NCBI RefSeq assembly: GCF_900100875.1 | Contig: NZ_FNKQ01000001.1 | Location: forward strand, 62,001 to 126,000 | From: Halopelagius longus | GTDB taxonomy: Archaea; Halobacteriota; Halobacteria; Halobacteriales; Haloferacaceae | Direction of reading: 5' to 3' | DNA: 64,000 bases | In this document: positions 1 to 5,762 of the stretch, piece after piece | How the letters are laid out: the number at the start of each line of letters is the position of its first letter | How positions within the stretch are numbered: position 1 is the stretch's first letter | The notes under the pieces: model-generated | Databases searched by the model: none | What the model was told of the DNA's origin: nothing | Seen by the model: the letters and a program-made list of their open reading frames with translations, nothing else | Position numbers and translations under genes: made by a program

Positions 1-2
1 TA

Positions 3-419
3 GCACTTGGTCTGTTAAATAGCATACCGTTCGACTACTTGATGAGACGGAAGATCGAGAGGAACCTCGTGATGTACAAACTAACGGAATCACAGGTGCC
101 GAGGCTTACTGAGGGCGATGATTGGTTCAACTACATCTGGGAGCGTGCTGCTCGTCTCAACTGTTATGGGACTGCTTTTGAGGAGATGAGGAATCGGCTG
201 GGTGGTATTGAGCCAGTTGAGGATAAATCGAAGAGGATGGATGTACGGGCAGAGATAGATGCGGCTTCATTCCATGCGTACGGTCTAACTCACCGTGACA
301 CAGAATTCGTTCTCGATACTTTCCACCGTGTATCCTCACCACGTGTAATGACCGACGAATACTTTGATACGGTCCTTGAGAAATATGACCTTCTTAAGCG
401 GGAAGGTCCATACTCATAG
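3..419 (+). CDS. DNA adenine methyltransferase, PglX/Eco57I-like, C-terminal fragment (5' end outside window)
   Basis: The reading frame is open from the left edge, so this is the last 138 residues of a longer protein rather than a 126-residue gene starting at 39. The visible start, LGLLNSIPFDYLMRRKI, is the type of segment found in the target-recognition part of large Eco57I/PglX-type N6-adenine methyltransferases. The later stretch around FHAYGLTHRDTEFVLDTF is the usual C-terminal helix of that family (known forms read H-LYGL-x(4)-ILDTF). The catalytic NPPY motif would lie upstream and cannot be seen. The gene converges on the TBP-like gene with 23 bases between stops. Codon use is AT-richer than the rest of the window. 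The family is fairly sure; which defence system it belongs to is inference. Confidence 0.72.
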   Translation, partial: ALGLLNSIPFDYLMRRKIERNLVMYKLTESQVPRLTEGDDWFNYIWERAARLNCYGTAFEEMRNRLGGIEPVEDKSKRMDVRAEIDAASFHAYGLTHRDTEFVLDTFHRVSSPRVMTDEYFDTVLEKYDLLKREGPYS

Positions 420-442: not shown

Positions 443-1042
443 TTATCTCTGTATATTGTCCAATTTGTCTTTCAGCCGGGTGAATTCTTTTTGAAGGGCC
501 TCTTCAGAGCGCGGACCGTTTACTGACACCTTTCCCGTCGAAAATACTGTAATAGTAGTCTCCTTCGAGGGCCGATAAAATAAACCGGGAAACTGTTCTG
601 GTTCATATTCTACTTTATCAGACGGTAATTCCTTAAATATGATAGACAAATCTACTTCATTGCCAAGTTCGCCAATACCGACTAAGTATCTAATCTCGAA
701 TTCAGGTGTACTCTCGAGACTAAAATCAGTTATTTCTGATACTTTATCCCTAAACATTCCATCGACTTCGAACAATTGACTGACTGAATTGCCTCCCGCA
801 ATGCTGTATTTTCCACTTTGGAAAAGAGTGACCGTAGGTAAGTCGCCTGAGATAGTCACATAAGCCATTGAGTCCCCGGATTCGTAACTATACTCGAATG
901 AAGAGTCTGCTAATAGTTTATCCAGTTGGAGTTCAACTCCCAGTTCGCCACCACCAACCGCATTTACTACCTGTACCACGTTACTTGACATAGGGACATA
1001 TTGATGAAATACAACCCGGCTCCACCCGATTTGTGCAGTCAT
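443..1042 (-). CDS. Divergent TATA-binding protein (TBP) paralogue
   Basis: A 199-residue protein made of two TBP half-repeats. Repeat 2 is unmistakable: EYEPEQFPGLFYR followed by TVFSTGKVSVNGPRS matches canonical archaeal TBP, including both phenylalanines (EQF and VFSTGK) that intercalate at the TATA box in TBP structures. Repeat 1 is degenerate: the EPEQFPGL block is replaced by unrelated sequence, while LFQSGKYSIAGG is kept. By eye, three of the four intercalating Phe remain. It lies 16 bases after the PLD-helicase gene on the same strand, so it is probably co-transcribed with it. An internal ATG at 991 (MSSNVVQVVNAV) fits the usual TBP N-terminus better and may be the true start. Housekeeping TBP should be elsewhere. 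The role is unknown: autoregulation, or sensing or diversion of viral transcription, are guesses. Confidence 0.8.
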   Translation of the reverse strand: MTAQIGWSRVVFHQYVPMSSNVVQVVNAVGGGELGVELQLDKLLADSSFEYSYESGDSMAYVTISGDLPTVTLFQSGKYSIAGGNSVSQLFEVDGMFRDKVSEITDFSLESTPEFEIRYLVGIGELGNEVDLSIIFKELPSDKVEYEPEQFPGLFYRPSKETTITVFSTGKVSVNGPRSEEALQKEFTRLKDKLDNIQR

Positions 1043-1058
1043 TCATGGATACATACCA

Positions 1059-4000
1059 TCATTTTCCAATCACTCCCCAACAGACAAGTTGAGCCTTCAC
1101 CTGACTCTCTCTAACGAGTTTAGCCTGATACTCAGTAGACGCCTCAATATTCTCTTCAAGGAATGCCTCTAGTTCTTCGAGGAACTCGGTTGACGGCCAG
1201 TCCGGGAACGACTCGTACTCCACATGATGTCGGAATGTCTCGCGGAGAATCCGGTCTTCGTCGGTGTTCCCTAGTTTAATGCCCTTCAGCCGACCGTGGA
1301 GGTCATCTGCCCACTCACCTATCGTCTCGTATTCTTCACGTGAGCAGGGGTCATCCCCGAAGTTCGTCTGAATATAGTGGGCGATGAAGTCCAGAATTGT
1401 CTCCTGCTCCTTTGAGTAGGAGTCACCCTGTTTGAACGCGCCCTCAACCTGCCCCTCGCGTATCGATTCGAGCCTCTCGTCGAGAACGTCCGTAATCTCC
1501 TCGCGGTTCGCCATCACGTGGTCGGTGTTCCCCGAGACCGGCTCACCTTCGACAGACGGACTGATGGAGAGTGTCTGTACAGACCGCTCCTTCACGTCGT
1601 CGCTGAACGGCTTGTAGTAGAATGCCCGTCGAACACGTCCGAGTGGGGCATTCTCATCTTCACTATCGAACCAGAGGTGCGCAAGCCCAAAAACACCCGG
1701 ACGCGGCCCCCTGTCGTGGTTGATAGCATTCGTATAGAGGAACTCTCTTTCTTCCGGCGGGTCGTCGAAAAAGTCCTCGGCGTACTCGAAGTCGTCAGCC
1801 GTGAGCCCGTACTCCTCGTTCAACTCGCGTTTGAGCAGGAAGCGATCGTATGCGGCTTCCTCGTTACTTCCCGCATTTCGTAGGAGGGGGTTCTTCGAGG
1901 TATCGTCAAGTTCATTCACGTCAGAAACCTCGCGAGACCGCCGTAGCGAGTCCTCGATTTCATCGACCTCCAGTTCCCCGATGGTCTTCTGCGTATCGAC
2001 GCCCGCCTTCTCTAGAATCTGATCCTCGTTCGGGTCGAGGATGTTGTTCTCCTTCCCGACGATGAGCGCGATGTCGTTGATTTTCGCCTGCAGTCGCTTC
2101 AGCAACTTGATGGCCGCCTCGATGTCCCCGTCAGGGTAGAAGTTGTGGACGTGCTTCTCCGCCGTACTCCCGATACGGTCAATGCGTCCGACCCGCTGGA
2201 CGATGCGCATCGGATTCCACGGCAAGTCGTAGTTGACCGCGACCTGAACGTCCTGTAGGTTCACACCCTCGCTGAGCGTGTCGGTCGCGACGACGTACTG
2301 GAGTTCAGTTTCGTCCGACTCTGCGAGCGTACTCTGATACCCGGATGCCTGCGGTGCGAACCGCTGGATGATGTCTTGCTTGTTCTCATCGCCGCCTTTC
2401 ACGACCGCGCTGTTCCCCGCTGTCAACGGTGAGTCCGGGTTATCGCGGAGCGTCCGATACACGTAATCGGCCGTTCCTCGATATTGGGTGAAGATGAGGA
2501 CTTTCTTATCGTGACTCTGGAGGACGCTTGCGAGGCGGTCGATTTTCGGGTCGCGGAACTCACGCAAGGAGAACACGGCCTCGTAGAAGTCCCGAGTCGC
2601 GGAGTCTACTTCCGTCAGGTCGCTCCTCGGGTACAGGATGGGATTCATCTCTTCCTCAGGGACATCAGGGAGCGTGCCTGCGTTATGGTCGTGGAGCCAC
2701 TGTCGAACCGTGACTGCGTGGTCACTCACGTCTCCAGTATCCCGTGCCACATCCCCGATGAACTGCGTGAGGAAGTACGCGATCAGCGTCAGGTCCTCGC
2801 GGATGTAAGTCTTGACCTCCCCAATAGTCGCGTCTACCAGTTCGTCCTGCGTCTCCGATTCACCCCCATCAGCCTGCACGGCGGTCGAGTCGAAGCCGAA
2901 TTCTTCGAGTGTCTGTTCGAGATCTTCGGCGGCGTCCTTCCCTTCAACGAAGTCGTCGATGGTTGCAGGGGCTTCTCCGTCCTGTACCGCACGGAGCAGT
3001 TCGATGTCTTCGTCTTCAGGCAGATCCTCCAGCAGACCGAGCAGTCGCCGCTCACTCTGGTGCAATGTTTCGATGGACTGCACGAACGCGTATGTCGAGG
3101 ACTCCAATCGCTTGAGGAGATTCAATTTGTAGAGGGCTTTGAGTGTACTCCCTGCCTTCGGGTTCTTCACCGTGATGTGCGGGAGATGGAGGGCGTCCAT
3201 TACGTCGGGAAGCATTCGGTAGATAGGCTGGTAGGCGGGCGGCAGCGAGTACTGTTCCTTGTGGAGTTTCGGTGGTTTGAAACTCATCTCGAAGTCCTCG
3301 TCGTCCTGAATCTGGTCCTTGACGTGCTTGCGCGTCCGCAGAACCATGACCTCGTTGAGGATATTCGAGATCTCCTTCGACTGGCGCTGCAACTGCTCGG
3401 TGATTTGCTGCTGCTTCTCGTCGGAGACCTCCTCCTTCCCAGCGGCGATGCGCTTGCGTATCTCCGCGAGTTCGATGTATTCGTCGAAGGCGTCGAAGTC
3501 GAGTGAGGCCTTGTTACGAATCTCCTCTGGGCTTGTGAATAGACTGATGAGGTTCTTTAGATCAGTAGCGCTGTTGTTAATGGGTGTCGCGGTCAGCATA
3601 ATCATCGTCTTCCCACGCAACTGCCGGAGGTTCGCGTGCCGCCGCGTCCCTTTGTAGTCATCGTCATGGTCGGGGCTCGGTCGCCACTTCCCAAAGTTAC
3701 GGAAGCGGTGGGCCTCGTCAATGAGTAGAACGTCGAAGTCGTCGCGGAGGTCCTGAACCTCCTCGTAGGTGAGGTTCTGGAACTTACTGACGCTCATTAC
3801 ATCGAGGTGAGTTCCGTCCATCTCCAGCCCGAAGTAGGGGTTGCCGTCCTCGTCGGTTCCATCTTGGAGGAGGTCTTCCCACTGATCGGTCAGGTTCGCC
3901 GGAACAATGAGGAGACAGCGATCACCGCGCTGTCGATAGTCGTAGAGGAGTTCACCACCGATAAATGACTTCCCGAGCCCAACAGAGTCGGAGATGATAC

Positions 4001-4856
4001 AGCCGTCGTACTGGGAGAGTTTCTCACGTGCGCTCTCATAGCCGAGTTTCTGGAAGTAGTACAACGGACTATCTCGTGCACTAACGTTGCCACTTAGTTC
4101 ATCGTAGGCGAGCAGTTTGTAGAGTTCAAACGGTTCGAGGTACGTTCCAAGGGTTTCTGTTTCTTCCTCCTCTTCCGTCTTCTGTTTCTCCTTCCACTCG
4201 CGATAGCGGTCGCTGTTATCTATGACGTCGATGATCTCCTCAGAGAACTTGTCAGAGTTTGCCCACTGATTGTCATACCACTCCTCAAAGGCTTGAGCAT
4301 CACTCGGTTCTTGGCTTGTAAGATTGAGTTCGACGTTGTGTCGATGACCCGTCTGCGAGAAATTTGATGAACCGATGATGGTGACTGATCCTCGTTTGTC
4401 CTTTTCTCCCTCTCGACGTGAGGAGTCATCAACTGCTTCGCGGAAGCAGGCACCTTTTGCGTGGAAATACCCCTGTTCAGGGTCCCGGACACGGATATCA
4501 ACGATGTCCTGAGCGATGAAGTCTCGAAGCCTATCGAGACGGCCTAACTGAGCGTTGTTCAACTGATTAATGTCATCTTCGAGGTCAGAGATGAACTGCT
4601 CTCGAAGAGACTGCCCTTCGTCGACTTCCTCGACGGTTCGACGGTCTGTCTGTCTCCCCATGAGGATGCGCATCGGAGCAGTATCGAGGACATCTGGATC
4701 GAGAAGGTTTTGCAGGTCATCTTTGACGAGGTCAAAACCGGAGAGATAGAAGTAGCCAGTCGCGATCCGCACTTCCTCTGATTCACGGATTACCTCCTGA
4801 TAGACGTCCTCAAGTTTCGTATCAGCGTTGTCGACGAGCGGTTCGACGTATTGCAT
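1059..4856 (-). CDS. PLD-family nuclease fused to SNF2-type helicase
   Basis: 1265 residues. The N-terminal 200 or so form a phospholipase D-like domain: HxK in FHAKGACF (H132, K134), GSSNFSQTG near 162-170 and HNVELN near 173. An SF2/SNF2 ATPase follows: Walker A SVGLGKS (291-297), DEAH (about 380-383), TATP (about 422-425), a long acidic and coiled insertion (450-750), then the second RecA lobe with ATDTLSEGVNLQ and the arginine-finger motif QRVGRIDRIG (about 887-896). The last 350 residues are unassigned. PLD-helicase fusions occur in restriction, BREX and DISARM-type loci, where they translocate on and possibly cut foreign DNA. The partners here are a PglX-like methyltransferase and a TBP-like protein. 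Start ATG 4856 sits in a 108-base divergent region shared with the BRCT gene. Confidence 0.85.
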   Translation of the reverse strand: MQYVEPLVDNADTKLEDVYQEVIRESEEVRIATGYFYLSGFDLVKDDLQNLLDPDVLDTAPMRILMGRQTDRRTVEEVDEGQSLREQFISDLEDDINQLNNAQLGRLDRLRDFIAQDIVDIRVRDPEQGYFHAKGACFREAVDDSSRREGEKDKRGSVTIIGSSNFSQTGHRHNVELNLTSQEPSDAQAFEEWYDNQWANSDKFSEEIIDVIDNSDRYREWKEKQKTEEEEETETLGTYLEPFELYKLLAYDELSGNVSARDSPLYYFQKLGYESAREKLSQYDGCIISDSVGLGKSFIGGELLYDYRQRGDRCLLIVPANLTDQWEDLLQDGTDEDGNPYFGLEMDGTHLDVMSVSKFQNLTYEEVQDLRDDFDVLLIDEAHRFRNFGKWRPSPDHDDDYKGTRRHANLRQLRGKTMIMLTATPINNSATDLKNLISLFTSPEEIRNKASLDFDAFDEYIELAEIRKRIAAGKEEVSDEKQQQITEQLQRQSKEISNILNEVMVLRTRKHVKDQIQDDEDFEMSFKPPKLHKEQYSLPPAYQPIYRMLPDVMDALHLPHITVKNPKAGSTLKALYKLNLLKRLESSTYAFVQSIETLHQSERRLLGLLEDLPEDEDIELLRAVQDGEAPATIDDFVEGKDAAEDLEQTLEEFGFDSTAVQADGGESETQDELVDATIGEVKTYIREDLTLIAYFLTQFIGDVARDTGDVSDHAVTVRQWLHDHNAGTLPDVPEEEMNPILYPRSDLTEVDSATRDFYEAVFSLREFRDPKIDRLASVLQSHDKKVLIFTQYRGTADYVYRTLRDNPDSPLTAGNSAVVKGGDENKQDIIQRFAPQASGYQSTLAESDETELQYVVATDTLSEGVNLQDVQVAVNYDLPWNPMRIVQRVGRIDRIGSTAEKHVHNFYPDGDIEAAIKLLKRLQAKINDIALIVGKENNILDPNEDQILEKAGVDTQKTIGELEVDEIEDSLRRSREVSDVNELDDTSKNPLLRNAGSNEEAAYDRFLLKRELNEEYGLTADDFEYAEDFFDDPPEEREFLYTNAINHDRGPRPGVFGLAHLWFDSEDENAPLGRVRRAFYYKPFSDDVKERSVQTLSISPSVEGEPVSGNTDHVMANREEITDVLDERLESIREGQVEGAFKQGDSYSKEQETILDFIAHYIQTNFGDDPCSREEYETIGEWADDLHGRLKGIKLGNTDEDRILRETFRHHVEYESFPDWPSTEFLEELEAFLEENIEASTEYQAKLVRESQVKAQLVCWGVIGK

Positions 4857-4964: not shown

Positions 4965-5762
4965 ATGCCCTCAACCGAAATCCCCGACGATGTCGGTGGT
5001 GCAGACTTCCGGAACGCGTCTGACCTCGATGGGTGCAAAGTCGTCTGTACGGGAAGACTAGAGGAGGTAACTCGTGCTGATTTCAAGGAGATCGTTGAAA
5101 GCTACGGCGGTAAGGTGACGAACAACATCTCACAAAAAACCGACGTCCTAGTCGTCGGCGACAACCCCGGAACGGAGAAAATCGAGTTCCTCCAAGAGCA
5201 TGAAACGCCTACCCTCACCGAACACGGATTCTACTCTCTCTTTCCGGAACGGTTCAAGCACGTCGACGGAGTACTTGACGAATCAGGTGGGCAGTCCACA
5301 CTCCCCAAAGGTGCCGAAGAGCGTGTTCAGATCGAACTCAGTCCGTTGGCTCTCCATCTAGCAGAGGCCACTGCCGAGGAACAAGGAGAGGACCTATCGG
5401 GTCTCTGTAATCGTTCAACTCGGAACCTCCTGAAGGGGGTGATTGATGGCGACCACCCATCTATCGAGACTCCAGAGAACGCGGAAGTAGTAGAAGTCAC
5501 CCTCCCAGAGGGTCTCTTTGCGATGGTTGAGACAGCAGTCGAAACTACGCCGGAAGCAGAGACAGTGGAGACGTTTGTCGCGGAGGCAGTAAAGAGAAAG
5601 ATTGGATTCAAATCCGGTGAGACGCAAGAAGTGAAATTGGAACTCCCTCAATCTGCGGTCACCCTACTCCAGAAGGTATCGCAGGACGAGGAGCAAGACA
5701 TGGAAGCGGTCGCCGAGAAGATGCTCTTGAGTGGACTTCGATTACAGTTAGAATCGCCGTAG
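4965..5762 (+). CDS. BRCT-domain protein with three C-terminal ribbon-helix-helix-like repeats
   Basis: 265 residues. Residues 20-95 form a BRCT domain like the one at the end of NAD-dependent DNA ligases: GCKVVCTGRLEEVTR, then ESYGGKVTNNISQKTDVLVVGDNPG in pieces. The C-terminal half carries three diverged copies of one unit, a short amphipathic strand followed by two helices: about 119-157 (VQIELSPLALHLAEA), 174-213 (VVEVTLPEGLFAMVE) and 221-262 (EVKLELPQSAVTLLQ). That unit resembles ribbon-helix-helix (CopG/Arc) DNA-binding folds. BRCT domains bind DNA ends or partner proteins, so this may be a DNA-end or nick sensor or a recruiter for the neighbouring helicase-nuclease. It is divergent from the helicase gene. 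BRCT is confident; the RHH reading is inference. Confidence 0.78.
   Translation: MPSTEIPDDVGGADFRNASDLDGCKVVCTGRLEEVTRADFKEIVESYGGKVTNNISQKTDVLVVGDNPGTEKIEFLQEHETPTLTEHGFYSLFPERFKHVDGVLDESGGQSTLPKGAEERVQIELSPLALHLAEATAEEQGEDLSGLCNRSTRNLLKGVIDGDHPSIETPENAEVVEVTLPEGLFAMVETAVETTPEAETVETFVAEAVKRKIGFKSGETQEVKLELPQSAVTLLQKVSQDEEQDMEAVAEKMLLSGLRLQLESP

Follow-up and report, generated by a model that had tools for sequence, protein, structure and literature searches.

Near-exclusive linkage of a divergent haloarchaeal TBP clade to restriction-modification genes

The TBP gene studied here, which lies in a 64,000-nucleotide stretch of the Halopelagius longus genome (the window), belongs to a clade of divergent TBPs that is near-exclusively linked to restriction systems which are methylation-based but draw on unrelated types of enzyme. 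Restriction-modification (R-M) genes lie no more than four genes away from 109 of 112 divergent TBPs (104/112 before the manual reclassification of five exceptions) and from none of 20 ordinary TBPs (Fisher 8e-21), figures which describe this sample only, its first locus set having been picked by similarity to the window protein and all genes called with a simple program. The first of the two TBP repeats is remodelled under selection in this clade, and not decayed. On balance, we lean towards the reading that the divergent TBP is a promoter-selective, TFB-recruiting TBP that would control R-M genes.

The window TBP and its flanking genes

The reading frame encoding the window TBP matches the Pfam TBP family (4.7e-24) in two stretches, both of which exceed the family-model cut-off of 22.9 bits (PF00352; Table 1). 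Alignment to 35 ordinary TBPs reveals the asymmetry which the first-pass annotation had read by eye: repeat 2 retains EYEPEQFPGL and both of its Phe positions, whereas repeat 1 (FEYSYESGDSMAYV...TLFQSGKYSIAG) keeps the Phe of LFQSGK and has lost the EQFPGL block and the other Phe. With three of the four intercalating Phe of an ordinary TBP, the protein is therefore not an ordinary TBP, but is still a TBP-fold paralogue. Modelling with 28 relatives (AlphaFold) yielded the anticipated TBP saddle with confidence (mean pLDDT 89.4), and all 44 strong PDB matches in Foldseek were TBPs, at TM 0.7-0.8 to the solved structures and with no other fold at low E-value. Given the retained YEPEQF stirrup, the protein would still bind TFB. 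As residues 1-20 are modelled with low confidence (pLDDT 51-59) and the first 17 are missing in relatives, which begin thereafter, the true start is probably Met18 (window 991; gene 443-991). Two ordinary TBPs are encoded in the same genome besides the window copy.

Table 1. Features of the window at the divergent TBP locus
Feature	Position	Strand	Remarks
Type IIG restriction-methyltransferase, 3' end	1..419	+	Convergent with TBP; 1208 aa in full
Divergent TBP (TbpC-like)	443..1042	-	199 aa as called; Pfam TBP; AlphaFold saddle
TBP repeat 2, canonical	455..700	-	58.4 bits; both intercalating Phe and YEPEQF stirrup present
TBP repeat 1, remodelled	764..976	-	29.4 bits; EQFPGL block and one intercalating Phe gone
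PLD-nuclease and SNF2 helicase	1059..4856	-	1265 aa; Pfam PLDc_2, SNF2-rel_dom, Helicase_C

The PLD-SNF2 gene, whose product matches the PADLOC model C3a139 HKD+Snf2 (3.4e-79), lies upstream of the TBP gene, at a distance of 16 nt, or of 67 nt if measured to Met18. Co-orientation with this nuclease-helicase, as first described, stands, with the refinement that the TBP gene is flanked on its other side by the converging gene of a type IIG methylase (PADLOC REase_MTase_IIG, 7.1e-68; Pfam Eco57I, 8.8e-26), with 23 nt between the end of that gene and the TBP stop. The methylase gene starts outside the window, at position 58793 of contig C1 of the same genome, and its frame is continuous from L176:6793 to window 419. 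The same trio is present in one genome of the window's family (L119), with 76% identity for the PLD-SNF2 protein and 62% for the IIG enzyme. In five plasmid records the same PLD-SNF2 gene (78-80%) is found close to the same IIG methylase, with no TBP in any of the five, and the TBP is thus an optional extra to the PLD-SNF2/IIG pair. At the window locus itself the PLD-SNF2 protein and the IIG methylase are the only such enzymes, and the full core gene set of BREX or DISARM is absent. No TFB gene occurs on the contig of the TBP; eight to nine TFBs are encoded elsewhere in the genome. Beyond the PLD-SNF2 gene, and divergent from it, lies window 4965-5762, whose 265-aa product begins with a BRCT domain nearest to that of NAD-dependent DNA ligase.

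A divergent clade with restriction-modification neighbours

A search of 170 genomes of the window's family uncovered dozens of TBPs nearer to the window protein than to ordinary TBPs. Scores with an ordinary-TBP model are bimodal, with ordinary TBPs at 261 bits or more, divergent ones at 175 bits or less, and none between. Ordinary and divergent TBPs also part company in a maximum-likelihood tree (support 83/96), where the window protein falls in an inner clade of 66 (support 97/98); one sequence labelled 'canonical' in the tree run (L196) is positioned within the divergent group. Both results agree with the earlier expectation of a clade apart from ordinary haloarchaeal TBPs. The class is spread across the haloarchaeal order, and among some 200 genomes from elsewhere in the phylum none exceeded a score of 180 bits. 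A contig scan with the TBP returned mostly marine archaeal TBPs of the ordinary type, and a single-protein search found no close relatives of the window TBP in viral contigs. For the TBPs of viral contigs L289, L292, L293, L294, and L295, the ordinary-TBP model gives higher scores than the divergent model does.

The YEPEQF stirrup of repeat 2 is present in 65 of 74 divergent TBPs. Most clade members have Tyr in place of Phe at one or both intercalating positions of repeat 1, and the typical pattern is a pair that is mostly Tyr-Tyr in repeat 1, with Phe-Phe retained in repeat 2; repeat 1 also carries its own conserved signature, Y-R-[TS]-G-K-[YF]-I-I. Two members (L118:11121-11954 and L228:8377-9201) have an N-terminal extension of about 90 residues, which by eye resembles small winged-helix-type neighbours and has no Pfam name. 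Over 77 pairs of divergent TBPs, dN/dS has a median of 0.125 (range 0.06-0.22), a sign of strong purifying selection, and repeat 1 evolves no faster than repeat 2 (medians 0.073 and 0.095), with dN no higher in repeat 1. Because dN/dS is about 0.12 and repeat 1 is as constrained as repeat 2, we consider repeat 1 to be remodelled, and the description of this repeat as worn does not survive.

The association with R-M genes, and hence the view that the defence-like neighbours of the window TBP are not random, holds under de-duplication (71 of 73 divergent TBPs and 0 of 6 ordinary ones; 1e-7) and outside the window's family (46/47), and none of 149 genes at random loci qualified as R-M. The first locus set comprised 10 kb around about 60 loci, in which genes were called and clustered; when models built on this set were used to label 40 further loci, taken from other families, the same picture emerged. 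Recurring partners identified with PADLOC are HsdM, HsdS, HsdR, the DrmMI/type IIG methylase, the BrxHII/DrmD-type SNF2 protein, PglX, PglZ, and BrxL, and the systems represented are type I (searches for type I nucleases covered few loci), IIG with SNF2 helicase, BREX, and type II. The common partner is therefore R-M of many kinds, and not, as had been envisaged, PLD-helicases exclusively. Fifty TBP genes lie directly downstream of, and co-directional with, their neighbour (17 with an overlap of about 4 nt), and 16 are divergent. At three type II loci, the TBP gene directly precedes the nuclease gene, which is the C-R layout; the order is TBP, MjaI-like nuclease, methylase at L147 and L159, and TBP followed by a NotI-like nuclease, with a methylase, at L146. 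An Eco57I-type methylase is found near the TBP at L138, and a methylase together with a UvrD-PD-(D/E)XK protein at L263. These five loci had at first seemed to lack R-M neighbours, and turned out to hold R-M systems of other kinds. Partner labels require 18 changes on the TBP tree; R-M partners have been swapped repeatedly within the clade. Conversely, TBP-bearing loci are the minority in the window's family: about 10 among 76 of DrmMI-like type, and 5 among some 40 with PglZ.

Annotated records add detail to this picture. On plasmid pNRC100 of Halobacterium NRC-1, a TBP which scores 262 bits (divergent-family model) and 159 bits (ordinary model) overlaps by 4 nt a helicase gene, itself preceded by two methylase genes that ISH27-2 keeps apart; the TBP's lack of the N-terminal Phe pair fits the published description of TbpC. 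The ordinary TBPs borne on NRC-1 plasmids lie away from R-M genes. The same plasmid encodes a 100-aa TBP (L348:10045-10347), near IS elements and a helicase fragment, in which the first part of repeat 1 is fused to the end of repeat 2, probably through an internal deletion. A Haloarcula BREX operon has the order BrxE-A-B, BrxC, PglX-type methylase, TBP, PglZ, BrxL, and divergent TBPs are also found inside the BREX-5 loci of Halococcus and Halorarius. In the haloviruses HRTV-9 (L346) and HJTV-2 (L352), divergent TBPs occupy a common slot, flanked by class II ribonucleotide reductase on one side and by tRNA-Thr/integrase on the other; the accompanying R-M cassettes differ, one comprising a type IIG enzyme and the other an N4-methylase with an Eco29kI nuclease.

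Proposed promoter control and alternative roles

In TBP-TFB-TATA structures, repeat 2 faces the BRE side of the promoter and its stirrup touches TFB. An intact repeat 2 with the YEPEQF stirrup would thus still engage TFB and, in a promoter, the half next to the BRE, and the changes in repeat 1 (Phe lost or replaced by Tyr, Thr12 to Gly) may alter which downstream half-sites are tolerated. A TBP of this kind would activate or repress a limited set of promoters, probably those of the R-M genes beside it, and such control could time or limit restriction when a system enters a new cell. Retention of the TFB-side repeat 2, alteration of the DNA face of repeat 1, siting at R-M genes, exchange of partners, and the gene order at type II loci favour a promoter-selective controller. 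As partner labels change so often on the tree, a role indifferent to the enzyme, that is, regulation, is indicated, and the near-exclusive siting together with strong selection renders a dedicated controller probable. Locus-specific transcription control, one of the two roles offered in the first-pass annotation, would accordingly be the best reading of the window locus; the other, sensing of viral takeover of transcription, is unsupported, and haloviruses themselves carry the module. More broadly, mobile restriction systems may have recruited a general transcription factor, TBP, as a controller that travels with them; every such system would bring a promoter-selective TBP of its own to time restriction in a new archaeal host, and viruses would have acquired the same module, a proposal which we hold to be plausible, if slightly short of an even chance.

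Several observations speak against control by the TBP: no promoter box common to the linked operons was found, the TBP is optional in DrmMI-like, PglZ, and PLD-SNF2/IIG loci, and deletion of tbpC in NRC-1 had no apparent phenotype (PMC2121645), although this last result is uninformative because ISH27-2 interrupts the methylase region of the tbpC-type operon there (L343:484-9540). An EM motif search of 110 upstream regions found no box common to TBP-linked operons that was convincing over controls. A near-invariant inverted repeat, AGTCTAAGTAAAGACTATAT, heads IIG-methylase/BrxHII operons across families in which its flanks have diverged; it lies 35-60 nt upstream of a first gene of 63 aa (at L122, L123, L124, L125, L131, L137, L154, L232, L246, and others), and 13 of its 14 order-wide matches precede an IIG/BrxHII operon. 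As a target of the TBP this repeat was rejected. Operons of one type carry it equally whether or not they include the TBP, and so it belongs to another factor; it is probably the operator of the 63-aa first-gene protein.

Other roles for the divergent TBP were weighed against the same evidence. It could be a DNA-bending or loading subunit of a restriction complex, acting with the methylase or with an SF2/SNF2 motor, much as the SNF2 ATPase Mot1 acts on TBP. The TBP gene often closes its operon, overlapping the preceding gene by 4 nt, many of its partners are motors of the SNF2 type or HsdR, and Mot1-TBP complexes are among the Foldseek matches, as they would be for any TBP. Nevertheless, we regard a subunit role as unlikely, for a single clade keeps company with unrelated enzymes, including motorless type II nuclease/methylase pairs and lone IIG enzymes, its partner labels change 18 times on the tree, and the majority of systems of the same types do without it. 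Alternatively, the TBP would act in trans on viral or host transcription, as a decoy or a blocker, by sequestering TFB or the promoters of invading elements. A TFB-type stirrup retained beside an altered DNA face could be dominant-negative, and siting in defence loci would suit such a protein. Against this, the two haloviruses, HRTV-9 and HJTV-2, carry the TBP with R-M cassettes of their own, and the TBP tracks methylation-based systems specifically, and not defence genes generally; we judge this role distinctly improbable.

It is very doubtful that the clade represents ordinary extra TBPs for stress- or environment-specific promoters, which reside by chance on R-M-rich plasmids. Many clade members are indeed plasmid-borne, and expansion of TBPs and TFBs is known (PMC2121645); however, none of the 20 ordinary TBPs, those on NRC-1 plasmids included, lies near R-M genes, whereas the divergent one is usually directly adjacent. 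Least credible of all is a decaying, non-functional TBP copy carried as a chance passenger, a suggestion made in PMC4230888. Phe residues have been lost, knockout is easy, and transcripts were not detected in one strain (PMC4230888), but a dN/dS of about 0.12, a dN in repeat 1 that does not exceed that of repeat 2, 97% linkage to R-M genes, and the conserved repeat-1 signature are at odds with decay. Control of R-M promoters by the TBP could be tested directly in the tractable Halorubrum lacusprofundi, Halobacterium, and Haloferax, and in the viruses that carry the module.

Relation to known systems

The C proteins of bacterial R-M systems are helix-turn-helix dimers with a defined C-box, and the divergent TBP may do in archaea what these proteins do with a helix-turn-helix. 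As with C proteins of type II systems, a small transcription factor is encoded within the R-M locus, and before the nuclease at L146, L147, and L159; the window departs from the C-protein layout in that its TBP follows the PLD-SNF2 gene. Unlike C proteins, this factor is a TBP by fold and accompanies BREX as well as systems of types I, IIG, and II, and no box was found for it. BrxR (PMC9122589) is likewise a regulator within a methylation-based defence locus, but is a bacterial WYL-type protein of unrelated fold.

The clade shares its signature with TbpC of NRC-1 and the tbpC-like TBPs, in which the N-terminal Phe pair is lost or changed and the C-terminal pair kept (Becker et al. 2014, PMC4230888; Coker and DasSarma 2007, PMC2121645). 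The window protein has lost only one of the two repeat-1 Phe, a case that also occurs in the published set. In PMC4230888, absence of the N-terminal pair was taken to suggest that these proteins had either become non-functional or acquired a highly specialised task. The portions of these two papers that were available treat TbpC as possibly non-functional and make no mention of restriction-modification; TBP is also absent from the main text of surveys of archaeal R-M systems and of a halovirus genome paper. With respect to the literature examined, what is new is the near-exclusive association with R-M genes, the evidence of selection, and the proposed role as a controller. The multiplicity of haloarchaeal TBPs has been an open question since the NRC-1 genome, and one large class of them would be R-M cargo, as opposed to spare basal machinery; if this is true, it is, as far as we found, the first TBP tied to restriction control in archaea. 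What was already known is the protein class and the asymmetry of its repeats. The nearest concept is the TBP gene of the TOTE/TALON conflict systems, of which TALON has been described from bacteria, where its TBP gene is accompanied by a TPR-CSD protein and a helicase of YprA type (PMC12458937); a TBP-type gene in a conflict operon is common to both, and the difference is that the recurring partners named here are R-M enzymes.
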